Virus record (IMG/VR): IMGVR_UViG_3300031687_000064
Span: 1 to 32,464 of that record
DNA length: 32,464 nt
Source of the DNA: a virus
Direction: 5' to 3' (one strand)
Position numbers and translations under genes: made by a program. The notes below the pieces were generated by a model, which saw only the letters and a list, made by a program, of their open reading frames with translations, was not told the DNA's origin and did no database searches. Shown here piece by piece: positions 10,579 to 26,908 of this stretch. Within the stretch, counting starts at the first letter, position 1, and each line of letters opens with the position of its first letter.

Positions 10579-13500
10579 ATGGCTATAAATTTCAACATAC
10601 AAAACACCGAAGATAATTCTTCATTTGCAATATTAAGAACGAATCCTAAATTAACTAGTAATTTAAAGTTAGTTGTGGATTCGGTCGATAATATATTCAT
10701 GAGTTCTTTCAAAGCAAGTAAACTGCTTTCAAAGGTAGAATATCAGAAGCTTAACATTTCAGCCGATGGTACTTATTCGAATGACGTTGCTAGGTTTTTC
10801 AAAGGAGCACCTAAGAATGAAAGATTTCAAACATTAAGAAAATACTCAGACATTACTCCATATTCAGAATACTCGTACCAATATGAGAATGAATACAACT
10901 ACGGCGCAAGTTTTAATGCTACTAAGTTATACGACGAACAATACAAGATATTCGCTCCAATATGGCTAGATAGAAGAATTCCTAGGAAATTCGTAGTATA
11001 TCGAGTATTAGATGTAGATTACAAAACAAAATACGAGGAAAATACAAACGGTCAAAATTCTAGAATATTAGATTTACTAGAATATGCAGCTATTGTTAAA
11101 ACATTCGACCTTACACCAAAAAGTAACATAGGTAAATATCTAGACAGACATGTCTTTGATAAAGGAATGCCTAGTTCTGTAATAGACTTTAATTTTGCTG
11201 AATCAGGTTCAATACAATATAAAGGTATTGATACTAGTAAAGGGGGTTTTGCTTCAAAGAAAGATTATATTGCAGAGGACTACATACAGAAAGATAATTT
11301 AGAGATAGATTCAAATGAATTAATAACTCAAGGATTTGAAAGACATGGTCTTATTTCTGCAAATTTAGTTAACATGGAATTTATGTTTGACGATTCGTCA
11401 GCAGATAACTATGAAATTTACAGATACTTTGGATTATACGTAGATGTCGTAGAGGAAGGATCTTTTGATATAGATACAGTTTCGACGGACGGCATCATTA
11501 GTATTAAACCTAATACCATGACCTCAGTATACGACGTTGCACCAGTAGGACTTACTCACGAAGATATGTTACCAAGAACATCTGACCTAAAGTTACCTAT
11601 ACTTTCTTATATTAACCTAGGTGGTGACAATTTTCTACATATTAAAAACAACACGTACGCTTCTGGATTAAAGTTATCAATATCTGGCATAGATCCTTTA
11701 GTAGATACTAATGCATTCATAAAATCAGATAATAAAGTTAATGCACTTTCTAAAAAAACATCAAACAAAGGATTTATAAAGGTTGAAGTGGTTGCAAAAC
11801 CAAACAACAATGATAGATTTTATATTGGAGACAAAACAGAAATAGAAATAGAATCATATAGTTTGTATGATTTCACTTTAATAGCGGATGATTCTTTAGG
11901 TAAGGGTACGTTTGTTGGGAATAAATTCTCATCAGCAGGTACTTTGAATCAGATTGCAATCGCTATAAGTAAATTAATAGAAAATAAAACAACATATAAG
12001 GTATATCAAAAAGATGCGACATTCTCTATAGAGGATTATGCAGATGGCGATAATAGGAAGAGAATGTCGTTTGGAGTATACAATTCAAATAATAATTCAT
12101 TCTTAAAGATAATCACAGGGGATTTAGATAATATTGGTTTATTAAACCAAAATATTGTTATTCCATTGACGTCAAACACAGACTTTACACAATGGACTAT
12201 GTATACTGCAACAGGGGGTTCCTCTATCGGAGCATCATTCCTTGTGCCAATTAATGAACTAGGATATATTAAAGTAGGTCAATATATAAAACACAAAGAT
12301 CTTAGCATATATTCTAAAATAACTAATATAATAACAGAACACTCTGATCCAGATGTATATCGAATTATCATTGAAAAACAATTCGAAGCACCTGCCGATA
12401 TGGTTATTCAATTGTATGATAAACTTAGACCCTCATTTGGTAAATTCTCAGCATATGATCTTAAAGATTTCGATTTCGATTTCTATAATACGTCAAATTC
12501 TAATATATCAGAGTTGAATCACGAGGATGATCCCTCTTATTTTACAGGATTATCCCCGGTATTATTTCAAGAAGATCCAGATGACATATATACTGCAATA
12601 GATATTATGTCAGAATATGACAGATTAAGTGAAAATAAATTAAAAGAAACTTCATTAAAAAGTAGAATAACTCCTACTGTTTTAAAATATGCAATGAAGA
12701 ATGGTACAAACGCGAGAAATCTTCCATATATCTTAAATATGAACGAGGCATTCGGACCTAATAACCTTTCTCCAGAAATTCAATTAGAATCTGGCAGAAA
12801 CGTAGATCATTTAAATATGGAACACTTCCATTTTAATCAAATACCTATGAAATACTATGATGATAATAAATTAAATGATTTATCGTCATATACTAGTTTC
12901 ACATCAACTGACGGTATATCGATAAAGCAATTAAAATCAACAGATATTGATTATTTCAGTCTATATTTTAAATGGAATGGAGTATATAATGATCAAACGT
13001 CGGAATGGGTGGATGATAAATTCAAAAAACTATATACTAAATTAGACAATGGAACTAGTGAACTAGAACCGAGCACTCTTTTTAGAGGGTTAAGATATAT
13101 TTATAAAAAAAGAAAGGAGTTTGAAAAAACAGCCCCTACTTCTTTTACAAAAACAACCGAAACTAATTCATATAAATTTGGTGTAACTTTAAACTATAAT
13201 ACGGGGTCTAATATCAACTCAGTATCATACAATGTTGTTAAAAATGACATACATAAATTTATATGTGTTGTTATAGATTTAAATGTAAAGCAAAATGACG
13301 TAGTGTCTATTGATAGAACATTCATGTATAATGCTACTGATATTATATTAAATAATAATGTTATTGATACGGAGATTCCTTTCAATATTGATATGTCTAC
13401 TCCGATGTTTGGGTCAGCAGATCAAATACCATTAAATGCCGATCAGATTTCTATAATTGATAAATCTGCGGATTTTATTAATAATATAACCAGAAATGCT

Positions 13501-14994
13501 GAAGGAGATTATTCATGGTTACTTTTTACAATACCATCATACGGAGTCGGATGTATTAAAGTTATTTCAGTAGTTAGTGCTACTCAAATAATAGTTGATG
13601 GAACTCCATTATATTTTGAAAACAATCCCTCTCCTGGAGAAGAACGAGGACCTATATTCTCACCGGTTCCAGTTAGTATATTAAATACAGTTCCACAAGG
13701 TACTCAGTTCTCTTATTGGAAAACAGGGTCTGCTGGATGGACTAATTTATTAGAAGAGGTTGTTTCATATAACTTCGCTAAGAGATTCAATAAATTCGGA
13801 GATATTAATTATATTACAGTTGATAAAAAAGGAGAACATAAGAATCAATTTGTATTAGAAGTACAAGATGGTGTTGAGGTTGTTAAACCTTCAATATTAA
13901 ATACAGAGTCTGATAGTGATCGTCCAAAATCATATCAGCTGTCTTCGACTGAGATTGGTAAAGTTATTAAAGAGAGAAGCGATGGTGGGTATTTTACAAT
14001 ACTAAGAAGAATGAATGGGGAATATAACCCATTGTTCAAAGATTGTGTCAGTTTCACAGATATACATAACGATCAAAGCATACATCTACCAGAGGTTGGA
14101 TCTAAAACAATAGATATTAATGATGTGGGAGATGTTAGAGCTAATTTGGTTTATAGTAAGTTTAGAAATCTCGGAGTCGCGTTTGCATCATACAAAGACG
14201 TAGATGAAAAATATGGTTTTATCAACAACATGCACTATCATAAAGTAAATAGTGATAATTCAAAAAACTTGTTAAAATTATCTGAAACGTCAGATAAATT
14301 GCCGTTATATCCTTTGATTGGTGAAATCGCTATTGATAAAAAGGACTTTAATATTTTTAAATCTAAATATGCAAGTGACTATTATACAAAGGCATTACCT
14401 GGAGGAAAAAGTGAACCAGTACATGGCACATTAAATCCTATAGAGCTAAAATCATTTATGGTTTCAACAATTATGAAAGTTAAAGATCATTATGATTTAA
14501 CTAGTTTTTCAAAAACTAAAGAATCATCAATAGATTCGCTAGATCATATTAGATTTAATAAATTAAATACGTCAGCAATTCACTGGCTAGAAGAAGACTC
14601 TCAAATTATTGCAGATTTATATCTACCTAAGTCAATATATAATGAATTATTAGAGGATGGTATATTGTCTAAATTTGTAAAATATGTTACTCCAGAAAAT
14701 TCATTCGGAGACAAGTCTACAATTTCAGATGATTTGGAACAATATGTTTATTCAAATATTGTTAATAGATTTATAATTGATAACACTGAGGTATATGGGA
14801 TTGCTGGTAAAAATTTAACAACAGACTTTGTATCTGTAGATTCACCTGAAAAATTAAAAGACGGAGGGTATACTGCACAAACTAATTTTGAAATTCAAGG
14901 GTATCAGAACGATGGACTGAGTTTTAGATTAATATATAATAAAAAACTAGGCTATAAATATAATTTAAAGCTGCACATTAAAATACAAGCATAA
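10579..14994 (+). CDS. Giant virion structural protein (1471 aa), unknown family
   Basis: The largest gene of the window. The protein is acidic to neutral, rich in Asp, Asn, Ser, Tyr and Ile, and seems to be a chain of beta-rich domains with few helices. It has very few Cys, no membrane segment, no signal peptide and no enzyme motif that I can recognise. Size and place between other tail genes suggest a tail-fibre, tail-sheath-associated or outer-baseplate component. Features that may help later matching are the N-terminal YSEYSYQYENEYNYG segment at about residues 95-110, rich in aromatic residues, and an acidic YDLKDFDFDFYNTSNS stretch at about 627-642. The start is preceded by a hairpin rather than the A-rich leader seen elsewhere. 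The stop is four bases before the next ATG, so expression is probably coupled to the collagen-like gene behind it. Confidence 0.65.
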   Translation: MAINFNIQNTEDNSSFAILRTNPKLTSNLKLVVDSVDNIFMSSFKASKLLSKVEYQKLNISADGTYSNDVARFFKGAPKNERFQTLRKYSDITPYSEYSYQYENEYNYGASFNATKLYDEQYKIFAPIWLDRRIPRKFVVYRVLDVDYKTKYEENTNGQNSRILDLLEYAAIVKTFDLTPKSNIGKYLDRHVFDKGMPSSVIDFNFAESGSIQYKGIDTSKGGFASKKDYIAEDYIQKDNLEIDSNELITQGFERHGLISANLVNMEFMFDDSSADNYEIYRYFGLYVDVVEEGSFDIDTVSTDGIISIKPNTMTSVYDVAPVGLTHEDMLPRTSDLKLPILSYINLGGDNFLHIKNNTYASGLKLSISGIDPLVDTNAFIKSDNKVNALSKKTSNKGFIKVEVVAKPNNNDRFYIGDKTEIEIESYSLYDFTLIADDSLGKGTFVGNKFSSAGTLNQIAIAISKLIENKTTYKVYQKDATFSIEDYADGDNRKRMSFGVYNSNNNSFLKIITGDLDNIGLLNQNIVIPLTSNTDFTQWTMYTATGGSSIGASFLVPINELGYIKVGQYIKHKDLSIYSKITNIITEHSDPDVYRIIIEKQFEAPADMVIQLYDKLRPSFGKFSAYDLKDFDFDFYNTSNSNISELNHEDDPSYFTGLSPVLFQEDPDDIYTAIDIMSEYDRLSENKLKETSLKSRITPTVLKYAMKNGTNARNLPYILNMNEAFGPNNLSPEIQLESGRNVDHLNMEHFHFNQIPMKYYDDNKLNDLSSYTSFTSTDGISIKQLKSTDIDYFSLYFKWNGVYNDQTSEWVDDKFKKLYTKLDNGTSELEPSTLFRGLRYIYKKRKEFEKTAPTSFTKTTETNSYKFGVTLNYNTGSNINSVSYNVVKNDIHKFICVVIDLNVKQNDVVSIDRTFMYNATDIILNNNVIDTEIPFNIDMSTPMFGSADQIPLNADQISIIDKSADFINNITRNAEGDYSWLLFTIPSYGVGCIKVISVVSATQIIVDGTPLYFENNPSPGEERGPIFSPVPVSILNTVPQGTQFSYWKTGSAGWTNLLEEVVSYNFAKRFNKFGDINYITVDKKGEHKNQFVLEVQDGVEVVKPSILNTESDSDRPKSYQLSSTEIGKVIKERSDGGYFTILRRMNGEYNPLFKDCVSFTDIHNDQSIHLPEVGSKTIDINDVGDVRANLVYSKFRNLGVAFASYKDVDEKYGFINNMHYHKVNSDNSKNLLKLSETSDKLPLYPLIGEIAIDKKDFNIFKSKYASDYYTKALPGGKSEPVHGTLNPIELKSFMVSTIMKVKDHYDLTSFSKTKESSIDSLDHIRFNKLNTSAIHWLEEDSQIIADLYLPKSIYNELLEDGILSKFVKYVTPENSFGDKSTISDDLEQYVYSNIVNRFIIDNTEVYGIAGKNLTTDFVSVDSPEKLKDGGYTAQTNFEIQGYQNDGLSFRLIYNKKLGYKYNLKLHIKIQA

Positions 14995-14998
14995 CCAC

Positions 14999-17389
14999 AT
15001 GTCAATAAGTATTAAAGAAATATTTAAAAGTGATCTAGATCCTAACAATCCTAATTGGTGGGCTAAATCCAAAGTTGATAAACTTAATTTTAATTTTAAT
15101 CAATTAGAGAATGGAGGTATGCCAGGTCCTATTGGAGTACAAGGCCCTGATGGAATTACAGGTAATCTAGGATACGACGGCCCAGACGGAACAAAGGGAC
15201 CTAATGGAAATCAAGGTTTCATAGGTCTTGATGGATTTTCAACATGGGAAAAACATAATGATTCCTCAAAAACTAACAGTACTCTAACGCCAACTGAATC
15301 AGGACATCCTGAATTTTCAGCTGTTCCAGTTATTATTGGAGTACAATCAGGTCATAATATGTATGATAATTCATTGGACTGGGAAAGAACCCCAAGTGTG
15401 TTCTTCGGATCCCCTACTAGAAATAATATAAGTATGGGAGATGGTTTCGGGAACCGATCAGCCTTTCATTTAACTAATAATGGATTAGATGTCGGTAGAA
15501 CTAGTTTACCGGGAACATCAAACCCGTTGAATATTAAGATTGATTTACAAAACTTAACACATAATTTATATAATTCAAACGGAAATATACTTGCTACTTT
15601 CACAGAATCAATATTTACTACAGAGATTCCAGTTAGATCAGAAGACACTAAAATAGATACTTTAAAATACACGAAAAACATAGCAGAATCTAAAGTATTA
15701 ACTTCTGTCAATGATACAGGTGAAGTTGTTTGGAGAAATAAATACGAAGTATTTGGGGCACTTCCAGTAGGTTCTATTATGTCAATAGGTTCTGTTGATT
15801 TCAACGATACAAATTTTTACAAAGATATTAGCACGAGTGTTGATGTTAATAGTGGATTGCTTGAAGTATCATATGGAAGGGGAAGGGAAAACACTGCATT
15901 TGATGGATGGTATTTATGTAATGGACAAACTTGGGATTATCAGGGTATTATTTCGTATTTAGTGCCTAATTTAAATTCTTTTAGGTATAGTATAGAAAGT
16001 GATGGTAATTTACAAAGCATACATTCATCTGATGTTGCTAGTAATAATCCGGTTTTAATCGGGGGAGGTAATATATCTGTTGATTGTATATTTAACAGTG
16101 TAGATAGTACATATGATGTAACAGGTTCTACCGATTCATCTGATATATTAACATCGTTTAATAGTGGAGGAACTACGCTTTCTCAAAATAAACAAATCCA
16201 TCTTATTAATTTAGGAAACGCGCTACTTAGTTGGAAAACCGGAGCAGGTACTCAAATAGCAACAACACCTATTGTTTTATCAGACCCTAGTGATTCTTCT
16301 TTAATATCATGTTCAGCCTCTAGTCAAACGTATGATTGGACAGGTACTTCTAGTAATATATGGGAAGATCAACAAGACGATTTAAATGGTATTGTTTTAT
16401 ATGATTCTAATTTATCTATTGCGCCTGCTAATAAATGGTATGCTAAAAATGGACTTTCTAGATTTTGGAATGGATCATCATTTACATTATTCGAAGCATG
16501 TGCTACTCAAAATAACATATCTCTAAGGCATGACACTAGTGTTTTAAATTTAAACTGGACAATGCCTTTAAATGGTGTTACCCATGTAATAAATGAAAGC
16601 ACATTTGCATTAGCAACAACATTAAACATAAATGGAGGAACTGCTCCTGTCGGTTGGTATAGAGAAACTGATCCTAATAACACAGTGTGGGTAAGAAGAT
16701 ATTGGAATGGTAGTTCATTTGGCCAAGATAATATATTAGATAATTTTGTAAAATATGCAGGTGAAATTGAGGTTTCATTTGGGATTGGATCACATTCTTG
16801 TACTTTTTCTGATTCAGCACAGCATATATACTATTCAACAAATGTTCAATATCCGTTAGGAAGTAATATCTTAGAAAGAATTAATAGTTCTGATGGTATT
16901 GTTTTTGTTAATAATGCGTTTGTAGATGTTAATGACGGAACATCTCATATATTAAAGATAAAAAATCAAATCAAAATAGGTGCTCAATTTCCATACGGAT
17001 CTTTATTAGATGCAGATACTACGCCTGACACAAGATCTGATATAACAAATAGTAGTCGATTAGATGGGGTATATCAATGCGGTGGTATTATCATAGATGG
17101 AGGTCAATATATAACAGAAGCAAATAATGCTAATGGTAACGTAGTATTCGGTAGTATACACGTAAGTCAAGGAGGTCTTAGCATTAAAATAATAACTGCT
17201 GGGGGTATTTATCGAAATGACCGAACAACATCAACCTTAAATATATCAGGTATGTCTATATATGAGGGAATCAGTGGTAGTACCCCAAGTGAACATTATA
17301 TAACATTTAATAATGCTGGAACATATACTTATATAATGTCAGCAGATTTCGAAGGAGAAGGCGGTAGTGTTACATTGTTAGTACCTTAA
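14999..17389 (+). CDS. Collagen-like tail fibre protein with tail-collar motif
   Basis: A 796-aa tail protein. Residues 1-40 hold a virion-anchoring start (SKVDKLNFNFNQLENGG). Residues 43-79 are an uninterrupted run of Gly-X-Y triplets (GPIGVQGPDGITG onward), expected to form a collagen-like triple helix, which implies a trimer. Residues about 254-335 contain LPVGSIMSIG, then GWYLCNGQTW and VPNLNSFRY; this 'GW.lC.G.....vP.L...f' order matches the phage tail-collar domain found at fibre tips. The C-terminal part is beta-rich and carries two similar 'WNGSSF' segments (SRFWNGSSFTL and RRYWNGSSFGQ), perhaps repeated receptor-binding units. It is a clear paralogue of the next gene over the N-terminal, collagen and collar parts but lacks that gene's Hint domain. 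Confidence 0.75.
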   Translation: MSISIKEIFKSDLDPNNPNWWAKSKVDKLNFNFNQLENGGMPGPIGVQGPDGITGNLGYDGPDGTKGPNGNQGFIGLDGFSTWEKHNDSSKTNSTLTPTESGHPEFSAVPVIIGVQSGHNMYDNSLDWERTPSVFFGSPTRNNISMGDGFGNRSAFHLTNNGLDVGRTSLPGTSNPLNIKIDLQNLTHNLYNSNGNILATFTESIFTTEIPVRSEDTKIDTLKYTKNIAESKVLTSVNDTGEVVWRNKYEVFGALPVGSIMSIGSVDFNDTNFYKDISTSVDVNSGLLEVSYGRGRENTAFDGWYLCNGQTWDYQGIISYLVPNLNSFRYSIESDGNLQSIHSSDVASNNPVLIGGGNISVDCIFNSVDSTYDVTGSTDSSDILTSFNSGGTTLSQNKQIHLINLGNALLSWKTGAGTQIATTPIVLSDPSDSSLISCSASSQTYDWTGTSSNIWEDQQDDLNGIVLYDSNLSIAPANKWYAKNGLSRFWNGSSFTLFEACATQNNISLRHDTSVLNLNWTMPLNGVTHVINESTFALATTLNINGGTAPVGWYRETDPNNTVWVRRYWNGSSFGQDNILDNFVKYAGEIEVSFGIGSHSCTFSDSAQHIYYSTNVQYPLGSNILERINSSDGIVFVNNAFVDVNDGTSHILKIKNQIKIGAQFPYGSLLDADTTPDTRSDITNSSRLDGVYQCGGIIIDGGQYITEANNANGNVVFGSIHVSQGGLSIKIITAGGIYRNDRTTSTLNISGMSIYEGISGSTPSEHYITFNNAGTYTYIMSADFEGEGGSVTLLVP
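15125..15235 (+). repeat. Gly-X-Y collagen-like coding repeat
   Basis: Thirteen consecutive triplets with Gly in the first position (residues 43-79 of the 796-aa protein). Prolines and polar residues fill X and Y. Such runs trimerise phage fibres. Confidence 0.85.
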
Positions 17390-17412
17390 TATGTTGTAAA
17401 GAAAAAGAAATA

Positions 17413-17420
17413 TATAAATA
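17413..17420 (+). promoter_or_regulatory. Candidate T4-type late promoter (TATAAATA)
   Basis: TATAAATA, identical to the T4 late -10 consensus, lies in the 47-base gap 16 bases before the ATG of the second collagen-like gene. In DNA this AT-rich the same octamer also occurs inside genes (for example near 19227 and 27046), so the match alone is weak. Support comes from its intergenic position and from the T4-like gene content. Confidence 0.3.
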
Positions 17421-17436
17421 AAGATAAAAGTTAGAA

Positions 17437-20013
17437 ATGGCAATTAATTTAAAACAAATATCAACATTAGATACTGACAACTTAAAGTTGGACAAGGTTA
17501 ATTATAACTTTGATCAGTTGGTTGCTAATGGAGGAGGACCTGCTGGAGTTCAAGGACCTTATGGTACTACTGGGTTTCAAGGAATCACAGGAGCACAGGG
17601 AGTACAGGGAACTTTAGGAAATCAAGGATTTCAAGGGCCTCAGGGTAATAATGGACAAGGCATATGGAAAGTGAATACTGGTGGAAATACAAAAACACTA
17701 TTACCAATACATGATGTAGTTGATTTTCCAGCTAGAATCCACCCGCCAAGTGTACTTATAGGATTCAAATCAGATGATCCGGAATATGATGATAGTTATA
17801 TTGAAGAGAATGCATCTCTTGTTGTCAACAGACATACTAAGTTTTATAATAATTTAGAATTAAGATCTTTTGGAGTTACTAATAAATTTTTATACAGGCT
17901 AACGCATGACAATAACGTTACAACGATGGAAACTAGATTTTCATTAGATGGTGGTGCATATAATCAACACGCTGATCTATTCACATGGTCAACTCCTTTA
18001 TCGGCACAGCCTCTGATTTCTTTAGATTCTACGATGTTAGATATTAATGTTGCCTCAGATTTCGAGGATTTAACAGTTAACGGTATTTTTAAAATAGTTA
18101 ATGGTTTACCAGATACTGGTAAAATTGCAGTTGCTAAAGATGTTACTGGTGAAATAGAGTTCAAATCAATAGAGGATATTGGGGGAGTTGTACCTGTTGG
18201 TACTATTGTTTCAGTCGATCCATCTTTTTATAATAACTCATTCATACAAACAGAGGTGGTACCATCTCCATTAAACGACGCAGTTGTTTTAACAGTTGGA
18301 GCTGGTTTTGGAAATTTTGCAGGTTGGTATTTATGTAATGGTAGAACTTGGAAAAATTCAACAGTATCTTATATCGTTGATGATCTAAACTCATTTTCTT
18401 ACAATATACAGAATGATACAGATAATACTAATGCAAATAGCCAGGGAGATGCTGTATTAGTAAATAATAAAACGTCTTTAATTGGGGGAGCAGACTCACA
18501 AATGGATGCAACGTTTACGCCGGGAGCAAACAACGTACCTGGAACATATAGTGTTAATGGTACTATATCGACATCACCAGTTGATATAACGTCAGGTACT
18601 GGTATTAATTTTACTATTAAAAAATTACCTCAAATAATATATTTAGGAGCCGTTGATTTACATTGGCAAGAATCAGGATTAGGTGCAAACGTAGTATTAC
18701 CTACATTTGTTTTATCTGATTGGACTGGTAGCGTTTCTCTAATTAACAATGACGGAGACACTATATTGGAGAGAGTACTTGGTAATTCACCAATGGTTAA
18801 CTTAACTAATAATATAGGTATAAATTCAACTTACTCTATTATTTCTAATTCAACTTCAATAGATATAAAAGTACCTAATGGATATATTAATGCTGGTCAG
18901 TTTATAACTGGTTTATTTAATATAAATCAAGAAGCAGCGATCGAACCAAATTACACGTTAACTACAACTAATAATAGTGTTAGAACAAATTGGACACTTA
19001 GAACACTTAATAATGTAAATGCTCCACTAGCACAATCTAATATGTCAGTTAGTGTATTGCCTGGAGGTACAGGAACTATAATAACATATGTCGTTCCTGA
19101 TGCAGGATACGCTCTCCCTAATTTATTCGATATAACATGGACTGGCGATACGTCTAATACTGAGATTACACAAGCAGCGCATGGCGCTTATCAGATTAAA
19201 ACGGAACATATTAGCATGCATGCTAATATAAATAGCACTTATGTTTTCAGCATACAAGCTTCTTTAATTTATTATAATACAGCACAAACTGGTCAAGCTT
19301 CTAAAACTAATTGTCCGCCTGGACAATCCCCTGATAGTCCAAACGTGTCAACTGTAACTAAACAAGCAGGTTCTTATAATAGTATTATATCGCAATTTAA
19401 TGCAAATGCAAAAGCGCATTTTGCAGCAACACAGGATGCACAAATCCTTGCTAATTCAAGTGGCACATGTTCTACTGATAATACATGTCTGATTGAAGGA
19501 ACTCAGGTAGAAATGAGTAACGGTACATTTAAGAATATTGAAAACATATTAGTAGGAGACAATGTTATGTCATTTAATATACATACAATGCCGTCTAATG
19601 ATAATGTATCTCAATTATTAACATGGGAATCTCTTGAGTTAAATACAGATGAATCTATCGCTCGAGTAACAGGGAACACTGAGAGCATCTCAATGGAAAT
19701 ATTTAATATAAATAATAATCTTTTAAAAGCAACTGCAAGTCATTTACATATAATTAAAAGAAATAATGTTTGGAAGATATCTAAAACTGAAAACATATTA
19801 GTTGGAGATTATCTATTAAATAAAGATCTTACAACTACTATTATAACTACAATTGAGATTGAAAACGAAGATAATTATAAAGTGTATAAATTAGATGTAG
19901 AGGATGATGATGTTTATGTTGCGAATGGAATAGTAACACATAATCTAAAAGACCCTGATGGGGAGAACGATGGTTTAGGAAATAATGGGCATAATAACGT
20001 CGGAATACAATAA
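17437..20013 (+). CDS. Collagen-like tail fibre protein with tail-collar, DUF5977-like and C-terminal Hint domains
   Basis: An 858-aa protein paralogous to the preceding gene. In order it has: an N-terminal anchor (KLDKVNYNFDQL); Gly-X-Y triplets at residues 34-73; a tail-collar-like segment at about 251-335 (VPVGTIVSV, then GWYLCNGRTW and DDLNSF); a long beta-rich receptor-type region; a DUF5977-like unit at about 612-678, starting with Cys626 and ending QILANSSGTC at Cys678; and a complete Hint domain at 684-836, followed by a 22-residue tail. Hint domains cleave themselves, so the fibre may be processed or covalently joined after assembly. The Hint part is absent from the paralogue, which suggests a later gain of the C-terminal modules. 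The gene has its own 47-base leader and a possible late promoter, and ends four bases before the next start. Confidence 0.75.
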   Translation: MAINLKQISTLDTDNLKLDKVNYNFDQLVANGGGPAGVQGPYGTTGFQGITGAQGVQGTLGNQGFQGPQGNNGQGIWKVNTGGNTKTLLPIHDVVDFPARIHPPSVLIGFKSDDPEYDDSYIEENASLVVNRHTKFYNNLELRSFGVTNKFLYRLTHDNNVTTMETRFSLDGGAYNQHADLFTWSTPLSAQPLISLDSTMLDINVASDFEDLTVNGIFKIVNGLPDTGKIAVAKDVTGEIEFKSIEDIGGVVPVGTIVSVDPSFYNNSFIQTEVVPSPLNDAVVLTVGAGFGNFAGWYLCNGRTWKNSTVSYIVDDLNSFSYNIQNDTDNTNANSQGDAVLVNNKTSLIGGADSQMDATFTPGANNVPGTYSVNGTISTSPVDITSGTGINFTIKKLPQIIYLGAVDLHWQESGLGANVVLPTFVLSDWTGSVSLINNDGDTILERVLGNSPMVNLTNNIGINSTYSIISNSTSIDIKVPNGYINAGQFITGLFNINQEAAIEPNYTLTTTNNSVRTNWTLRTLNNVNAPLAQSNMSVSVLPGGTGTIITYVVPDAGYALPNLFDITWTGDTSNTEITQAAHGAYQIKTEHISMHANINSTYVFSIQASLIYYNTAQTGQASKTNCPPGQSPDSPNVSTVTKQAGSYNSIISQFNANAKAHFAATQDAQILANSSGTCSTDNTCLIEGTQVEMSNGTFKNIENILVGDNVMSFNIHTMPSNDNVSQLLTWESLELNTDESIARVTGNTESISMEIFNINNNLLKATASHLHIIKRNNVWKISKTENILVGDYLLNKDLTTTIITTIEIENEDNYKVYKLDVEDDDVYVANGIVTHNLKDPDGENDGLGNNGHNNVGIQ
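17536..17655 (+). repeat. Gly-X-Y collagen-like coding repeat
   Basis: Fourteen consecutive triplets with Gly first (residues 34-73 of the 858-aa protein), rich in Gln (GVQG, GFQG, GAQG). It corresponds to the run in the upstream paralogue but has diverged in X and Y. Confidence 0.85.
19486..19944 (+). other. Hint (Hedgehog/intein-type) autoprocessing domain, mini-intein size
   Basis: Residues 684-836 (153 aa) of the tail fibre. Block A begins at the nucleophile Cys684: CLIEGTQVEMSNGTFKNIEN, then ILVGD. Block B is T766-A-S-H769, the TxxH that activates the first peptide bond. Blocks F/G are YKLDVEDDDVYVANGIVTHN, ending His835-Asn836. There is no endonuclease insert. The residue after Asn836 is Leu837, not the Cys, Ser or Thr needed as the second nucleophile of standard splicing, so N-terminal cleavage, C-terminal cleavage or a bacterial intein-like (BIL) reaction is more likely than splicing. 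The motifs are clear; the reaction type is inference. Confidence 0.85.
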
Positions 20014-20016
20014 AAT

Positions 20017-20820
20017 ATGATTATACTAAAAAACATATTAGGAAATAAGACATTAATGCGATTCATAGGAATCGCTATTGTCGTTTTATTAGTCTTAAAA
20101 CAATGTAATCAGATTTCAAATCTTAAAGAAGATTTACAAAGAACTGAAAATGTTGCAGAAAGAAACTTTAATAATTACAAGACTGCTCAAGATTCTATAA
20201 AAACTGAAGTAGATAAACATGGTAATTTAGTTTCTAAAATTGGAACATATGAATATGACATATCTACATTAAAGAAAGATAAGACAAATTTGTTGAATAG
20301 ATATAATAAGGTTCTTAATGATAAGACTAAATTAGAAAATATAAATACATTAATATCTACTGATTTAATTATAAAGGATTCTATAATAGGATCAATTGTT
20401 GAAGTTACTCAAAATGCAGATACAATCTCTGTTAGTTTTAGTGACAACAAAAAATGGGATAAATATAACTGGAGAACATTTAATGGTGAACTTAGATTAA
20501 CTAAATTAGATTCATTATTTATTACGGATTCTTCTAAGTTTTATTTTAATCAAGGTATTAGTTTAACTACAGCGATAGTTGAGGAAGACGGTAGAGAAGT
20601 TTTAAGAATTACAACACCATATCCTGGTTTGACTTTCACTTCTATGGAGAATATAAATATTGTTAATGATAAATTGAATCAAAGATATAAGAAAAAAGCA
20701 GGATGGTCAATTGGGGTTGGAGTAGGTTATGGAATTAATCTAAACAATAATCAAATTATAAGTACTGGGCCTTCGATTGGAATTGGAGTATACTGGTCAC
20801 CAAAATGGTTAAAATTTTAA
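20017..20820 (+). CDS. Membrane-anchored coiled-coil protein, possible spanin-like lysis protein
   Basis: A 267-aa protein with one N-terminal membrane span at about residues 14-29 (MRFIGIAIVVLLVLKQ) flanked by positive residues. It is followed by a long charged helix with heptad character at about 31-125 (QISNLKEDLQRTENVAERNF and beyond). The C-terminal third is beta-rich and ends in a Gly-rich hairpin (GWSIGVGVGYGINLNNN, then GPSIGIGVYW), which looks like two amphipathic outer-membrane-type strands. Inner-membrane anchor, periplasmic coiled coil and outer-membrane-interacting end together resemble a single-gene spanin that fuses the envelope membranes at lysis. Cys30 is not in a good lipobox (LKQC), so lipidation is unlikely. 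No endolysin or holin is evident beside it, so a tail-associated membrane protein remains possible. Confidence 0.6.
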   Translation: MIILKNILGNKTLMRFIGIAIVVLLVLKQCNQISNLKEDLQRTENVAERNFNNYKTAQDSIKTEVDKHGNLVSKIGTYEYDISTLKKDKTNLLNRYNKVLNDKTKLENINTLISTDLIIKDSIIGSIVEVTQNADTISVSFSDNKKWDKYNWRTFNGELRLTKLDSLFITDSSKFYFNQGISLTTAIVEEDGREVLRITTPYPGLTFTSMENINIVNDKLNQRYKKKAGWSIGVGVGYGINLNNNQIISTGPSIGIGVYWSPKWLKF

Positions 20821-20834
20821 AATAATAATAAACA

Positions 20835-22892
20835 ATGGCACAATCATCAAAATTTGCAAGACTTGACGAAGATATTCTATTAGAATTCATCTACCATGAT
20901 CAAAGCGTTCCTGATACTGTTAAGATCGATAACGATGATAATGGTAGTCAATTAAAATACTTAAACACAGTATCTGGTAATAATAGTGCAGCTAGGATGT
21001 TAATTCATGAATTAGGATCTGATGTTGTAAATTTTACAGTTAATATTGCAAACGGATATGTTTATGTTAATAATTTTGCATCTAGGGAACTTCTTGTTAA
21101 AAACGGATTAACTTATAAATTTGATCTAAACGATGCATCTATTAATAATATTAATGGATTTTCAATAAATGGAAACCTACAAACTCCAGTAAATGGAATA
21201 GTAACATTCTCTCCTAATACAAACGGAACTTTCGTTTATTCTTATAAGGATTTAGCAGGAACTACTATGATAGGTGGAAATATAGTTGTTGGCGATAAAG
21301 CTAACTCACTATGGGCAACACCGTTACAAGAAACTGGAAATACAATCAAAACCGCTCCGGGTGAAGGAGGACGCTACTACGCAGTACCTACTGATAATGC
21401 TAATGTTTTAGCTTTGTTAGATAATGGATTAAATTATTTAGATTCATCAGAATGGCAAGGTACTGATTCTTCAGGACTTAATATTGTGCCTAGTGGAGAT
21501 GTTGATTCTGTTTGGTACGATACAATAAAATTGCACTTAAGAACAGGGTATTCCTTTAATAGTAGAGGATATGAAGGATTTTCTTTTCAAGTTAAAGTAA
21601 AAAGACAATCTGGAGAGTATGGTTATTTAACATCATTAGTTTATTTAAACTCTTCTAATTATGAGATTCAAAATCCACAACCATTTACATTAGCAGATAG
21701 TTCTTTCTCTAAATATATTGAAATTAAAGTACCTTCGCTAGTTCATATGAATAATCCTGCTAAGAATCAGGATATGGCAACAACATTCTTTGGAACTTCA
21801 ACAGATTCTTTAATATCTTCGGCTAATTACGAAATTAAACTTGGATTAATTGGAGAGGTTAAAACAGTTAGCGGATATGATTACATAGAGATTGTCGCTG
21901 AAAACGACCTGATATTATCACAAGAAGATGAATTCACAGATGTTTCAGTTAAATTAGAAGAAGCAACCGACGGAGATTATTTCAAAATATACGGAATGAA
22001 AGATGGTTCAGTCGCTGGTTTTGAAAATTATATAAATGGTAGGATCGCGGAATCTTCTGATGATATTACAGTATTTTATGATATTGAACTTAGTGAACAA
22101 TTAGGATTAAATTATATAAACACATATAGAACTAGCTTTTCACAAGTTGCAAATTATGACGAACCTATAATATATAGACCAGTTATTTTAAATGCAGGCG
22201 CAGCTAGTAGTTTTTTGCTTAGAGTAAATATGAGAATCTATAATGAAACGGACAATACTCAAATATTAAAAGTAGCGACTTTAGTTTATAATAAACCTAA
22301 GAAATACGGAAAGAGAATGACACAAATAAACCTGAGTGGTAATTATTCACCAACAGTGGTTTATAATAAAATGACGAACACTCAAGTTAACAGGGAATTA
22401 AATCAATTTGTAAATTCAATAAGACCATCTGTTGGAGAAACTAAATATGTTCCAGTTGCATTAGATACTTATGGTATTTTAGCAGGTTCAACTAATGTAA
22501 CGTTAGACGGTACTGATTCAATTGCAACTAATGAGATAAAATATAAACCAGAGGGAGAGGCTGTAGTATCTCTTTCTAAAGTTTCTGATAACTTTATTAA
22601 ATTCAGTATTGCAAAACCTAAAGGAGATAATTTAGAATCTATTAGTTTGGTAAATGCAGAAGATATAATTCTTATTATTAAGAGTGGAACGATAGAGCAA
22701 CAAATACACCATGATCCTAATTTTCCTGATGTTGATTTAGGGAAAGGTGAAGTAATCTTCAAAGTAACAAAAAGCATTGCAACAAGATTCGATCAAAAAG
22801 ACACAAATGTTAATCAAGATAAATTTTACATTAATTTAAAGAATGGTGTAACTGAGTCTTTATTATATCACGGTAAAGTAAACATTATATAA
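20835..22892 (+). CDS. Beta-rich virion structural protein (685 aa), unknown family
   Basis: A protein I cannot assign. It is almost entirely short beta strands with Asn, Gly, Ser and Asp turns. A strand-rich N-terminal domain of about 150 residues (with YVYVNNFASRELLVKNGLTY) is followed by several sandwich-like domains and a C-terminal domain ending FYINLKNGVTESLLYHGKV. It has no Cys, no membrane span and no catalytic motif. The short A-rich leader (AATAATAATAAACA) follows the usual pattern of this window. The stop overlaps the next ATG by one base (TAATG), coupling it to the possible tail-tube-fold gene, so a role at the tail tip, tube end or baseplate is reasonable but inferred only from position. 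Confidence 0.6.
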   Translation: MAQSSKFARLDEDILLEFIYHDQSVPDTVKIDNDDNGSQLKYLNTVSGNNSAARMLIHELGSDVVNFTVNIANGYVYVNNFASRELLVKNGLTYKFDLNDASINNINGFSINGNLQTPVNGIVTFSPNTNGTFVYSYKDLAGTTMIGGNIVVGDKANSLWATPLQETGNTIKTAPGEGGRYYAVPTDNANVLALLDNGLNYLDSSEWQGTDSSGLNIVPSGDVDSVWYDTIKLHLRTGYSFNSRGYEGFSFQVKVKRQSGEYGYLTSLVYLNSSNYEIQNPQPFTLADSSFSKYIEIKVPSLVHMNNPAKNQDMATTFFGTSTDSLISSANYEIKLGLIGEVKTVSGYDYIEIVAENDLILSQEDEFTDVSVKLEEATDGDYFKIYGMKDGSVAGFENYINGRIAESSDDITVFYDIELSEQLGLNYINTYRTSFSQVANYDEPIIYRPVILNAGAASSFLLRVNMRIYNETDNTQILKVATLVYNKPKKYGKRMTQINLSGNYSPTVVYNKMTNTQVNRELNQFVNSIRPSVGETKYVPVALDTYGILAGSTNVTLDGTDSIATNEIKYKPEGEAVVSLSKVSDNFIKFSIAKPKGDNLESISLVNAEDIILIIKSGTIEQQIHHDPNFPDVDLGKGEVIFKVTKSIATRFDQKDTNVNQDKFYINLKNGVTESLLYHGKVNII

Positions 22893-23443
22893 TGATACTA
22901 AATAGCAGAAATAACTTATTCAATTTTAAGTTCCCTCGTAATTTTATCCCAACTGAAGTAGCTGATAAATACAAGAAGTACTTGAATAGAATGCCAGGTA
23001 GTTTAATGACAGAACCTATTGATTTTGTAAATTATTCAATACAGGGCATGTCAGTTCCTGGGATTAGCTTTGATCCTATTGAACAAGCACCTAATGATGG
23101 AACTACAACGTATCATAGAGGTTCAATACCAATACAAAATACAATTGAAAGACAATTTACAGTTGAAATGCAATTATTAGACGGTTATATTAACTATTGG
23201 ATAATGCAAGATACTCTTTTGTATTATTATTCAAAAACAAACAGGAAGCCATTTCTAGAAGATCTTAAGCTTCAAATAATGGATGCTGAGGGTATTCATA
23301 TAATGAGTGCTGTTTTTGAGAAACCAATAATGAATTCAATAACTGAACTAGAACTTAACATGAGTTCTAACATTGCAGAATTTAATACGTTTACATTAAA
23401 CTTTTATTATAACAAGTTTAATTTAGTATTAGAAATAGATTAA
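22892..23443 (+). CDS. Possible tail-tube-fold protein (tube or baseplate-tube junction)
   Basis: A 183-aa protein. The segment VNYSIQGMSVPGISFDPIEQ at about residues 47-66 resembles the loop and strand region of T4 gp19-type tube proteins, in which a 'v...slPG..f' strand is followed by polar beta strands. The downstream stretch has alternating strands (ERQFTVEMQLLDGYINYWIM), then a helix (WIMQDTLLYYYSK), then a final strand pair (EFNTFTLNFYYNKFNLVLEI), consistent with the small beta-barrel plus helix of this fold. T4-like phages carry several proteins of this fold (gp19, gp48, gp54), so this could be the tube protein, a tube initiator or a hub component. The match is by shape rather than strong identity. 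Confidence 0.5.
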   Translation: MILNSRNNLFNFKFPRNFIPTEVADKYKKYLNRMPGSLMTEPIDFVNYSIQGMSVPGISFDPIEQAPNDGTTTYHRGSIPIQNTIERQFTVEMQLLDGYINYWIMQDTLLYYYSKTNRKPFLEDLKLQIMDAEGIHIMSAVFEKPIMNSITELELNMSSNIAEFNTFTLNFYYNKFNLVLEID

Positions 23444-23455
23444 GATATATACTAT

Positions 23456-23824
23456 ATGAAAACATTTTTAGATTACATGGAAGATGCAGATATCACTAAT
23501 GAAGAGCTTCAGGTTTTACAAGAGTCATTACAGACTGAGTGGACTGATGAGCTTGAGGAAAAGGTAGATGCTGCTTTAGAAGAATTTGCAAAGGAATACA
23601 AGAACGAAGACGGAACTTTTAATATAGAAAGACTTAATACTGAAATGACAAATGAAGGTATGTTTGGTTCTATATTCGGAGGTTTAACAGGATTCGCTCT
23701 TGGTAAAACCATTGGTAAAACTGTTGCTAAAGTAATGGGTATTCAAAAAGGTATATTTTATGATATGTTAACCTCACGATTAGTTGGAGCTGCTTTAGGT
23801 TCTGCTATCGGTAAAGCTCTATAA
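23456..23824 (+). CDS. Glycine-zipper protein with acidic N-terminal segment, possible membrane-active virion protein
   Basis: A 122-aa protein in two parts. Residues 1-67 are acidic and helical (MKTFLDYMEDADITNEELQV onward). Residues 68-122 contain two hydrophobic Gly/Ala-spaced segments (MFGSIFGGLTGFALGKTIGK and SRLVGAALGSAIGKAL), whose GxxxG-type spacing is that of glycine zippers found in membrane-inserting and pore-forming proteins. The border reads MTNE-GMF, a Glu|Gly step after a small residue, similar to T4 prohead protease sites, and the start MKTF resembles the start of T4 internal proteins (MKTYQEF). Cleavage would release the membrane-active half. A holin-like or injected-protein role is possible. 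It ends directly before the RuvC-like gene with no gap. Confidence 0.55.
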   Translation: MKTFLDYMEDADITNEELQVLQESLQTEWTDELEEKVDAALEEFAKEYKNEDGTFNIERLNTEMTNEGMFGSIFGGLTGFALGKTIGKTVAKVMGIQKGIFYDMLTSRLVGAALGSAIGKAL

Positions 23825-24475
23825 ATGACTTACGTTACAATTGATTTTTCACTAAATTCACCAGGTATTTGTATATTTAAAGACAAATATCATTTCATAT
23901 CTTATTTAAAACCAAAATCCGGAACTAAAAAAGATCAAAGGACTCAAGAAGATTTGAGTCTATTATCTGATGTTACTTTAAAAGAACAACCAGATTTCAC
24001 TAATGTTGGCGCTTATTCTTCAGTTGAATTAGGTAAGATCAATAGATATATCACTTCTGCGAACGATATCATAAATATTATTAAAGAACATACTAAAGGA
24101 GAAACTCAATTTGTTTTTGCTTTTGAAGGAACTTCGTTTGGATCTAAACAAGGAACTAATAACATTATTGATATGGCAGCAGGCGCTGCAATCCTTAAAC
24201 TAAAGATTCTTGAAGAGTTTAATCCAATAACAATAGAAACTGTTGCACCTTCAACTATCAAAAAGCATGCTGGAAAAGGTAACATGAATAAGTCTCAGTT
24301 ATGGAAAGTCTTTATTGAAGGCGGAACTGGAACTGATGAGATTGTTAGAGCCTCTGACTTCCTTCTTTTTTGTGTTAATGAAATCGGCGAAACAACTAAG
24401 ATTCCAAAGCCCTTTGATGATTTAGTCGATGCATATTTCTTGAACTCTTACGTTCAGTCCTTGGACCAGATTTAA
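23825..24475 (+). CDS. RuvC-like Holliday junction resolvase (RNase H fold)
   Basis: A 216-aa RNase H-fold nuclease, probably resolving branched DNA during recombination-dependent replication and packaging. The first strand (VTIDFSLNSPGICIF) carries the catalytic Asp7. The second acidic residue is Glu101 in FVFAFEGTSFGS. A basic loop (PSTIKKHAGKGNMNKSQL at about 142-159) matches the 'v.P...Kk...GkG.a.K' region that contacts DNA in RuvC relatives. The last acidic pair is in KPFDDLVDAYFL, with Asp199 and Asp202 as likely ligands. All four expected metal-binding positions are therefore present. T4 itself uses an unrelated resolvase (endonuclease VII), so this is a plausible replacement. The start abuts the previous stop. 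Confidence 0.75.
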   Translation: MTYVTIDFSLNSPGICIFKDKYHFISYLKPKSGTKKDQRTQEDLSLLSDVTLKEQPDFTNVGAYSSVELGKINRYITSANDIINIIKEHTKGETQFVFAFEGTSFGSKQGTNNIIDMAAGAAILKLKILEEFNPITIETVAPSTIKKHAGKGNMNKSQLWKVFIEGGTGTDEIVRASDFLLFCVNEIGETTKIPKPFDDLVDAYFLNSYVQSLDQI

Positions 24476-24559
24476 CTTTCAGACTTAAAGACTTAACTTA
24501 TACTGTCATCTGGCTGGAAAGTTTCATAACCATCTAAATAAATTTAATAATAAATAATA

Positions 24560-24748
24560 ATGTATAACGAAGAGATATCCCCATATGAACTTATGAACTT
24601 AAAAAGTACTTTAGACTTAATGGTCTCAACAAACCGAATAACAAAAAAAGAAAGCTTAGAGATATTAAAGAAAGCTGGGCTTAGTATATCAGACGATGGT
24701 AAAGACTTCGTTGACGAAAAAGGATCTATATATAAATTTGATATATAG
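24560..24748 (+). CDS. Small protein of unknown function (62 aa)
   Basis: A short acidic to neutral protein with an N-terminal helix (PYELMNLKSTLDLMVSTNRI), a second helix (KKESLEILKKAGL) and a short strand pair (DFVDEKGSIYKFDI). I do not recognise it. It sits alone between the RuvC-like gene and the gp32 leader with an A/T-rich leader (TTTAATAATAAATAATA) typical of genes here, which supports it as real. TCTAAATA at 24533-24540, one base off the T4 late -10 consensus, may promote it. Function unknown. Confidence 0.55.
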   Translation: MYNEEISPYELMNLKSTLDLMVSTNRITKKESLEILKKAGLSISDDGKDFVDEKGSIYKFDI

Positions 24749-24876
24749 TTTGAATATATTTGAAACTTTTAATAGTTTTCAAGTATAAACCATGAAAGTT
24801 TATTAAAGGTACCGAAAGAATTAACGATCAAAGAATTTAAAGTTTAACGAATTAACAAATTAAAAGAATTAAAGAC
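24749..24876 (+). promoter_or_regulatory. Leader of the SSB gene: possible gp32-type translational operator
   Basis: A 128-base gap before the gp32 start. The upstream part can form TTGAAACT (24760-24767) paired with AGTTTTCAA (24774-24782, one bulge); AAACTTT (24763-24769) is also complementary to AAAGTTT (24795-24801), so competing or nested pairing is possible. The downstream part is unstructured and G-poor and holds TTAA at 24821, 24837, 24844, 24852, 24860 and 24869; the last five starts are 7-9 bases apart. T4 gp32 represses its own mRNA by nucleating at a leader pseudoknot and coating an A/U-rich operator, with a site size of about 7 nt. The similarity is inferred. Confidence 0.45.
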
Positions 24877-25797
24877 ATGGCAGAATTTGACATTTTCAAT
24901 TTAGGCGTCTCAGACGTCGACACACACGAACAACAAGCAAAAACGGATGTAATCTATAAACCTAGTGCAGACCAAGGTAAAGATGGGACATACAAAGCAT
25001 TAATACGTTTTGTTCCTAATCCAGCAAATCCACGTAACTCATTAGTTAAAAAATATGTACACTGGTTAACAGATGCATCAGGTAATGGTCGATTAGTCGA
25101 TTCACCTAGCTCTGTTGGAGAAACTTGCCCAATTGCGGAATCTTTCTTCAAATTACGTAATAGTGATTCAGCAGTAGACCGTAAAATGAGTGAGAAATTA
25201 AAAAGACGTGAACAATACTACGCACTTATTAAAGTAGTTAAAGATCCTCAAAACACAGCAATGGAAGGCCAATATATGGTATATAAGTTCGGTTACAAGA
25301 TCAAAGAAAAGATCGATGAGGAATTAAAACCTGCATTTGGTGAACCAACTCAAGTATTCGATTTATTCGAAGGTAAAAACTTTGAGTTAATCATTACAAG
25401 ACAAGGTGAATATAACAACTACGATAAATCTAAATTCTCAGCAAGTCGCTCAGCAATTTCAGTAGAAGGAGAACCAGCAGAAAGAAACAAAGAATCTATG
25501 ACAGTTATTAAAGCTGAATTAGAAGCAGCACCATCATTAGAGCCTTATGAATATAAAGCATGGGATGGAGACGCAAGAGACTTTGTTAACGGTATATTAA
25601 GACAATACTTAAATCCAGGTAGTTCAATGGACGCAGTTATTTCAAAACCTAAAGCAAAACCAGCACCGAAGCAGAAAGCTAAAGTAGCAGAAGCAGTTGG
25701 AAGCACAGATACAGAAATAGATACTAATCCATCGCCAGCAGCTTCAGCGGATAGCAGCGACGATCTAGATTCTTTCTTGAATGACCTTGATATCTAA
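24877..25797 (+). CDS. 32: Single-stranded DNA-binding protein, T4 gp32 family
   Basis: A 306-aa ssDNA-binding protein (T4 gp32 is 301 aa) that coats replication and recombination intermediates and organises the replisome. The core shows YKALIRFVPN (about 39-48), the aromatic segment REQYYALIKVVKDPQNTAME (about 111-130) and GQYMVYKFGYKIKEKI, close to T4 YWANILVVKDP and VFKYRFGKKIWDKI. NYDKSKF (181-187) matches T4 NYDESKF. The C-terminus is an acidic tail (SSDDLDSFLNDLDI), the protein-interaction handle of the family. Of the four T4 zinc ligands, only His62 and Cys84 align; the other two are absent. Arg codons include many CGT, unlike neighbouring AGA-rich genes, as expected for a highly expressed gene. 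The 3' end overlaps the primase gene by 17 bases. Confidence 0.92.
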   Translation: MAEFDIFNLGVSDVDTHEQQAKTDVIYKPSADQGKDGTYKALIRFVPNPANPRNSLVKKYVHWLTDASGNGRLVDSPSSVGETCPIAESFFKLRNSDSAVDRKMSEKLKRREQYYALIKVVKDPQNTAMEGQYMVYKFGYKIKEKIDEELKPAFGEPTQVFDLFEGKNFELIITRQGEYNNYDKSKFSASRSAISVEGEPAERNKESMTVIKAELEAAPSLEPYEYKAWDGDARDFVNGILRQYLNPGSSMDAVISKPKAKPAPKQKAKVAEAVGSTDTEIDTNPSPAASADSSDDLDSFLNDLDI

Positions 25798-26908
25798 GAT
25801 AGACGAATCATTAAAATCTAAAATTAGAAGTCTAGTAAAGCAAGTCGTAACGACGCAACATACTGACCCTAATAAAAGAATGCTTAAGGAAATGCCAGGC
25901 CGTTTGAGTCTGGCATGCCCTTATTGCGGTGATAGTTTTACAGATACTTACAAAAAAAGAGGAAGTATATACTGGGATAGTTTACAATTCCACTGCTTCA
26001 ACTGTAGCCAACATGGCGATGTCTATAGTTTATTGAAAGATCATCATGTCGGTTTTAAAGACCGTGAAGATTCTATTAAAGTTATTGATTTTATACAAGA
26101 GCATAAGATTTCAGCAGAATCAGTTGAGGTATTAGAGCACGACGTATTTAAAAAGATATATGACTTAGCACCTACTCGAGAAGATCTCATAAAATATTTC
26201 GGATTCAAAGAAATAGAAACTGGAGATCCAGGTTACTTTTATCTACGAGGTAGAATGTTATCACACAAACTTGAAAACTTCATGTATTCTCCTAAGGATA
26301 AAAGAATGGTAGTTCTCAATGTTGCCCCTAATAATAAAGTTATTGGATTTCAAACAAGAGCTCTTTCAAAATATAAAAGCGCAAGATATTTAACTTACGA
26401 TATTGAGAAAATATATCAAGAGATGAAAAAAGATATTGGAGTTTCTATTGAGGAATTAATAAGTCTTAAGAAAATATCAACATTGTTTGGTATTTTACGT
26501 GTTGATTTACAAAGACAAGTAACTATGTTTGAGGGACCTATTGATGCGATGTTTATGCAAAACAGTATTGGACTAGCAACGGCCGGGAGATCTACTGAGG
26601 AATTTGATGAAATTCCTACAATACGTTATATGTTTGATAATGATACCACTGGTAAAAAGAAGATGATGGAGAAATTAAGAAGAGGAAAGGAAATCTTTAT
26701 GTGGGGTAAGTTTTTTAATGAAACTAAATTAGATGTAAGATGGGAAAAGTATCTAGAATCTATTGACAAAGAAAATAGAGATAAATATCCTAAAGAACTA
26801 GGTGACTTGAATGATTTAGTCAGAATTGCTTATTACTTAAAAGATGGTTGTATTAAAGATCTCTCTAAGTATTTTAGTAATTCAAAACTTGATGCATTTT
26901 ACCTATGA
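25781..26908 (+). CDS. DNA primase, DnaG/T4 gp61 type (zinc ribbon plus TOPRIM)
   Basis: A 375-aa primase that should make RNA primers for lagging-strand synthesis. The N-terminal zinc ribbon has Cys46, Cys49, Cys72 and Cys75 (LACPYCGDSF and FHCFNCSQHGD), which reads template DNA in this family. The catalytic TOPRIM core has Glu251 in FEGPIDAMF (with Asp255), the Asp286-Asn-Asp288 pair in YMFDNDTTGKK, and a third acidic position in GDLNDLV (341-347). Length is close to T4 gp61 (342 aa). The start is inside the last codons of the SSB gene, which couples primase synthesis to SSB, its functional partner. No replicative helicase is in the window. The stop overlaps the next gene by four bases (ATGA). 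Confidence 0.88.
   Translation: MTLISKIDESLKSKIRSLVKQVVTTQHTDPNKRMLKEMPGRLSLACPYCGDSFTDTYKKRGSIYWDSLQFHCFNCSQHGDVYSLLKDHHVGFKDREDSIKVIDFIQEHKISAESVEVLEHDVFKKIYDLAPTREDLIKYFGFKEIETGDPGYFYLRGRMLSHKLENFMYSPKDKRMVVLNVAPNNKVIGFQTRALSKYKSARYLTYDIEKIYQEMKKDIGVSIEELISLKKISTLFGILRVDLQRQVTMFEGPIDAMFMQNSIGLATAGRSTEEFDEIPTIRYMFDNDTTGKKKMMEKLRRGKEIFMWGKFFNETKLDVRWEKYLESIDKENRDKYPKELGDLNDLVRIAYYLKDGCIKDLSKYFSNSKLDAFYL

Follow-up and report, generated by a model that had tools for sequence, protein, structure and literature searches.

The question raised by this locus is what a complete Hint domain does at the end of a tail-fibre-like protein, where 22 residues separate it from the stop codon. The window, which is the whole stretch of DNA analysed, is a contig of viral origin, 32,464 bases long, and by its gene content (baseplate wedge, UvsW-like helicase) the source phage is a T4-like myovirus. 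The fibre gene has the baseplate wedge gene upstream of it, and its features are collected in Table 1. A preliminary description had placed a Hint domain with motifs C684, T766xxH769 and H835-N836 at the end of a collagen-like fibre, and its limits proved exact, Cys684 being encoded from 19486 and Asn836 up to 19944, with all the motifs found in the 858-aa ORF. The residue after Asn836 is indeed Leu, followed to the stop by the rest of a 22-residue tail, and the collagen-like nature of the protein is borne out by its Gly-X-Y stretch.

Table 1. Features of the fibre locus, with positions in the window
Feature	Position	Strand	Evidence
Paralogous fibre gene lying upstream (796 aa), with the same N-terminal region but without Hint	14999..17389	+	
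Tail-fibre-like protein, 858 aa, C-terminal Hint	17437..20013	+	ORF; fibre-related N-terminal part
Conserved fibre N-terminal region, about residues 1-415	17437..18681	+	blastp of relatives
Collagen-like Gly-X-Y stretch, residues 34-82	17536..17682	+	Pfam Collagen 2e-4; PHROG tail fibre / collagen-like minor tail
DUF5977 domain, residues 612-679	19270..19473	+	Pfam PF19404, E 8.5e-12
Linker TDNT, residues 680-683; T683 is -1 of the predicted scission site	19474..19485	+	Sequence
Hint (BIL-like) domain, residues 684-836	19486..19944	+	AF2 model, fold searches, homologues
Cys684, predicted thioester-forming nucleophile	19486..19488	+	Invariant in 28/28 Hint domains
Block B, T766-A-S-H769	19732..19743	+	H769 invariant, 766 Thr/Ser, 28/28
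Block G, H835-N836, predicted Asn cyclisation	19939..19944	+	Invariant in 28/28
C-terminal tail L837-Q858, 22 aa, +1 Leu	19945..20010	+	Sequence

Along the fibre, the collagen stretch is followed by a variable middle, DUF5977, the TDNT linker, the Hint and the tail; the DUF5977 domain directly preceding the Hint had been absent from the preliminary description. Relatives of the N-terminal ~415 residues were found at about 60 IMG/VR loci, often in the form of tandem paralogues whose C-terminal halves are unrelated, and beyond about residue 415 the sequence differs from phage to phage, as seen by blastp. The upstream paralogue shares 31% identity with the Hint fibre over residues 1-428. The Hint is located in the variable C-terminal part, with some relatives having it and most lacking it, and it is present on different fibre types. 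Within the 32,464-base window, no further Hint turned up in an iterated HMM search. However, a longer record (G008, 63,464 bases), 100% identical to the window where compared (window 1-211 and 11437-26010), encodes a second Hint protein of the same phage (L077 7228-9510), with ~550 residues of collagen repeat and a Hint 51% identical to that of the window, having Arg at +1 and a 7-residue tail. The gene downstream of the Hint fibre (20017-20820) was considered as a dedicated partner of the Hint and rejected, as this DNA is conserved 3' of Hint-less fibres in relatives too.

The second Hint gene belongs to a row of four consecutive collagen-repeat genes (L077 2-9510), one of them with very regular G-x-x repeats spanning 800 residues. 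A Hint-bearing collagen gene is followed by DUF6445, GT2 glycosyltransferase and 2OG-Fe(II) oxygenase genes both there (L077 9623-13037) and in another phage (L082 5636-9051), which form a candidate cassette for collagen hydroxylation and glycosylation. Elsewhere, in csAssE-Sib, a diversity-generating retroelement adjoins a DUF5977-repeat protein (L149 2791-6201).

Evidence from the fold was sought because the Pfam Hint models remained below cut-off on the fibre (Hom_end_hint 1.8e-4, PT-HINT 4.5e-4, Intein_splicing 0.005). The AlphaFold2 model, built from an 18-sequence alignment, reaches pLDDT values mostly of 89-98 across the Hint, and a Foldseek search with it returned 57 PDB matches at E<=1e-3, with BIL domains and inteins at the top. 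By VIA-align, in which Z gaps below 1 count as ties, the best match is the Tetrahymena BIL2 (PDB 6y75/6tmm; Z 20.4, rmsd 1.7 A, 142 residues), followed by the Clostridium thermocellum BIL (PDB 2lwy; Z 18.5, rmsd 1.5 A, 133 residues), inteins (up to 18.4) and Hedgehog (PDB 1at0, 16.8). Region 70-230 of the model aligns from Cys1 to the terminal Asn with BIL and intein structures, and phmmer matches to solved Hints came only at E of at least 0.098. The match is more than chance, and the modelled Hint fold is secure despite the sub-threshold Pfam scores. BIL domains, which the preliminary description had named beside Hedgehog as parallels, are the closest structural matches, ahead of inteins and Hedgehog.

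This arrangement recurs among phages. Viral contigs and genomes scanned by alignment, together with phage records, yielded 19 phage protein lineages, counted by eye and roughly by identity, in which 1-22 residues lie between the Hint and the C-terminus (the window, L080, L082, L083, L087, L089/L091, L034/L031/L032, L092/L124, L093, L071/L072, L009, Alexandra-type, Afa-NA1, NCTB136, NCTB132, L220, L222, L223 and L224). Many of them sit on collagen-like, repeat-rich or fibre proteins, and the tails after the Hint vary among lineages in length and sequence. The catalytic residues C684, H769, H835 and N836 are invariant across an alignment of 28 Hints (26 non-intein Hints and two inteins), position 766 being Thr or Ser. 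When cultured phages were searched by tblastn, the whole fibre had no match at 1e-3, and its DUF5977-Hint part gave weak matches that led to the Alexandra-type proteins. As deep forks are weakly supported in the Hint-domain tree, which leaves out the characterised A-type BILs, no single origin is claimed.

The residue after the terminal Asn separates these domains from inteins. In the terminal lineages it is L, R, R, A, I, Q, V, P, A, L, T, T, M, A, A, A, L, V and I, so that Cys, Ser or Thr occurs in two of 19 (the Thr of L009 and of the Erwinia phages), at about chance level, compared to 11 of 11 true inteins fetched (helicases, portal, terminase and others), in which several helicases share one site and are not independent. 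The difference is significant by Fisher's test (2/19 versus 10/10, P = 3e-6), with +1 read by eye for the window, L192 (Cys), L129 and NCTB136. The fetched inteins also carry C-exteins of 50 or more residues. The absence of a +1 nucleophile, previously noted from the Leu of this fibre, is thereby extended to most terminal lineages.

Other Hint arrangements were observed as well. Three proteins (L117 780-2537, L118 1286-3052 and L119 4500-6257) have a mid-protein Hint with Lys at +1, followed by ~255 residues judged LamG-like by eye, where a scission would free a possible adhesin. Six phage proteins with a Hint-like domain lacking His-Asn (L121, L123, L188, L196, L197 and L199), with Ser-Asn or Ser-Cys instead and tails of ~40-70 residues, are B-type-like. 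In phage NCTB, a stand-alone Hint-like gene of 153 aa (L162 3886-4347) lies right after a Hint-bearing tail protein and lacks Cys1 at the usual place.

Proteins that lack the domain indicate what it is attached to. In Alexandra-like Erwinia, Dickeya and Yersinia phages, a collagen-like tail protein ends in a Hint, whereas the orthologous protein of Dickeya phages JA29 and JA13 (324 aa, ~50% identical) has none, ending "...ITARNPK" where the others read "...VVARNP-TSSTSG/C-Hint". Since the distant members Afa-NA1 and NCTB carry the Hint, the JA phages probably lost it. This loss shows that the domain is dispensable and is no sign of cleavage elsewhere. Similarly, the second Hint collagen of the window's phage ends "...GSFSTASHTVSFTNGLVTSI-TTSGPPR/C-Hint" and a Hint-less sibling ends "...GSFNDNNFISRTVANGKIL", while in the L082 phage the Hint-less collagen sibling ends "...NGQFRDNSNNVLQVVNGFITTKNHS"; by visual, unscored alignment, the siblings of both phages close with a segment of the "GSF...NG-I" type, like the one found before the Hint. 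In Sphingomonas phage PAU gp21, just 3 residues separate the end of DUF5977 from the C-terminus, and no Hint follows. As the Hint-less counterparts stop there in three comparisons, the Hint follows what in other proteins is a finished C-terminus, and it looks, from these sequences, like a domain appended after the natural end of the fibre rather than its tip.

Regarding selection, the Alexandra-type Hint is under purifying selection, as judged from dN/dS over the Hint of 0.07-0.12 among orthologues in the four of seven comparisons where dS was estimable, the other three being saturated. In L034/L031/L032 the Hints are 93-97% identical and the preceding ~980-1000 residues 58-81%.

The simplest reading is that of an appended Hint which removes itself, and this is also the reading best matched by the Hint-less counterparts. 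It seems fairly probable that an A-type-BIL-like Hint on a finished fibre detaches by scission between T683 and C684. The fibre would be made as a precursor, with the Hint appended after the natural C-terminus of DUF5977. After folding, Cys684 would attack the T683 carbonyl in an N-S acyl shift, assisted by T766 and H769, forming a thioester that would be released through hydrolysis or aminolysis, while Asn836 would cyclise with H835, cutting off the 22-residue tail. The fibre of the virion would then end at about T683, without its Hint, and in a minor product the short tail could be ligated to it, a reaction of which A-type BILs are capable. These BILs, lacking a +1 nucleophile and keeping His-Asn, mainly cleave and splice weakly via aminolysis of the N-terminal thioester (PMC4031507; PMC7765530).

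The Hint itself could cap the trimeric fibre for a time or help it to fold, resembling Peptidase_S74 chaperones. A Hint gene lies directly 3' of a Peptidase_S74-ending fibre gene at two loci (L083 952-5480 and L093 3-5501), which suggests, weakly, that the Hint is an alternative to that chaperone. The occurrence of cleavage, the bond mainly cut and such a cap or chaperone role are inferred. Two features fit scission less well. Pro at -1 in L034, L083 and L089 counts against it, as this residue slows N-terminal cleavage in model inteins. Moreover, N-terminal scission alone leaves the invariant His-Asn unexplained, and the reaction may therefore be a coupled one. In the Alexandra-type phages, true splicing may occur, as their 10-residue tail TDIVAKAEKK is conserved (L143 6424-6453 and orthologues), unlike the tails of other lineages, and +1 is usually Thr. 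The earlier proposal of self-processing thus agrees with the intact fold, the missing +1 nucleophile, the BIL likeness and the recurrence with catalytic residues kept; its suggestion that the fibre releases its tip fits only as far as self-removal is concerned, because the part removed is more likely the Hint, the counterparts without it stopping just upstream.

As Tetrahymena BIL2 is reported to make an isopeptide bond to lysine (PMC8616854), conjugation is chemically plausible, though no observation here speaks for it directly, and is the main rival to self-removal: an amine would attack the T683-C684 thioester, leaving the fibre C-terminus covalently linked to a lysine on a second fibre subunit, to some other virion protein or to a molecule of the host surface, while the Hint leaves. 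BIL2 is the best structural match, the catalytic residues are invariant, and the C-terminal place with a dispensable tail suits handing the N-terminal part to an outside nucleophile; however, structural likeness alone shows no function, there is no conservation at -1, neither an acceptor nor an acceptor-binding domain or dedicated partner gene was found, and the downstream gene also follows Hint-less fibres. Conjugation is accordingly held to be rather unlikely, and the broader idea that many phage lineages use a terminal BIL as an enzyme-free device for fibre conjugation is likewise unlikely; if true, fibre C-termini would be joined to lysines of neighbouring subunits or of the host surface, so that appendages would be locked covalently or attachment made irreversible. 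Since many unrelated phages share the design, it is probable that some fibres either cleave off their own tail end or become attached to something through it.

A Hint that stays as a folded, catalytically idle C-terminal domain, for binding or as a trimer end-cap, would agree with its occurrence on different fibre types and with its place in the variable C-terminal half, which in fibres often holds host-binding modules. Idleness should cost at least one catalytic residue and is for this reason disfavoured, since none of C684, H769, H835 and N836 differs among 28 divergent Hints; the counterparts, moreover, end before the Hint, and this reading is judged distinctly improbable. The same fold and motifs, the database notes "contains intein domain" and the Thr at +1 of L009 and the Erwinia phages, which could splice, would suit a degenerate or canonical intein inserted close to the C-terminus. 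This is very unlikely, as a homing endonuclease is absent, the 1-22 residues after the Hint vary and make up no conserved C-extein, the host site is not conserved, +1 is Leu here, and the true inteins fetched all have C/S/T at +1 and C-exteins of at least 50 residues; a canonical class 1 intein was rejected on the Leu, the unconserved 22-residue tail and the lack of a C-extein. A pretoxin-type Hint releasing a C-terminal effector, to which the weak PT-HINT match points, has hardly any likelihood and was rejected, with just 22 residues after the Hint (1-22 in other lineages) and no toxin domain in them.

Parts of this picture are known. Hint domains on phage tail proteins are already in database records, those of Erwinia phage Y3 and phage NCTB reading "putative tail protein, contains intein domain", and Hints also occur among predicted viral proteins, including one collagen protein. 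A literature search on terminal Hint domains of phage fibres found no paper in the collection covered, that on tail-fibre Hint domains yielding only terminase, ribonucleotide reductase or related inteins; the text of the Dickeya jumbo-phage paper contains no virion proteomics and does not mention inteins. The chemistry is therefore known and the setting apparently undescribed. If self-removal is true, intein-like self-processing would be a recurrent step in phage fibre maturation, A-type BIL domains would gain a concrete biological job, the "intein" notes on jumbo-phage tail proteins would be explained, and fibre annotation, modelling and expression would be affected. The reading is directly testable in cultured phages with the Hint (Erwinia Y3, Dickeya AD1) and without it (Dickeya JA29).

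Compared to known systems, Hedgehog (1at0) shares the Hint fold, the C-terminal position and the N-terminal thioester; however, the window Hint has His-Asn and no sterol-recognition region in the residues that follow, and Hedgehog is structurally further from it than the BILs. Peptidase_S74, the endosialidase chaperone, is similar by analogy, as a C-terminal self-removing domain on fibres of unrelated family and chemistry. The collagen-like tail proteins of Alexandra-like phages, Erwinia Y3 and NCTB also end in a Hint with the same invariant residues and a short tail, but they differ in their hosts, their mostly Thr +1 and their tail conserved within the group, and their Hints have only distant identity to that of the window. 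B-type BILs lack the C-terminal His-Asn present here, and phage proteins without it exist elsewhere (L121, L188 and L197). Tetrahymena BUBL1 BIL2 has Cys1 and the terminal Asn, as here, but lies between ubiquitin-like domains (PMC8616854), which do not flank the window Hint. A-type BILs, such as that of C. thermocellum, share the fold, Cys1 with T/S-x-x-H (C684, T766, H769) and the C-terminal His-Asn without a +1 nucleophile (H835-N836-Leu). They sit in variable regions of non-conserved proteins (PMC7765530), and the window Hint likewise lies in a variable protein region. Unlike those A-type BILs, found inside bacterial proteins, it lies at the extreme C-terminus of a phage fibre, after a complete protein.
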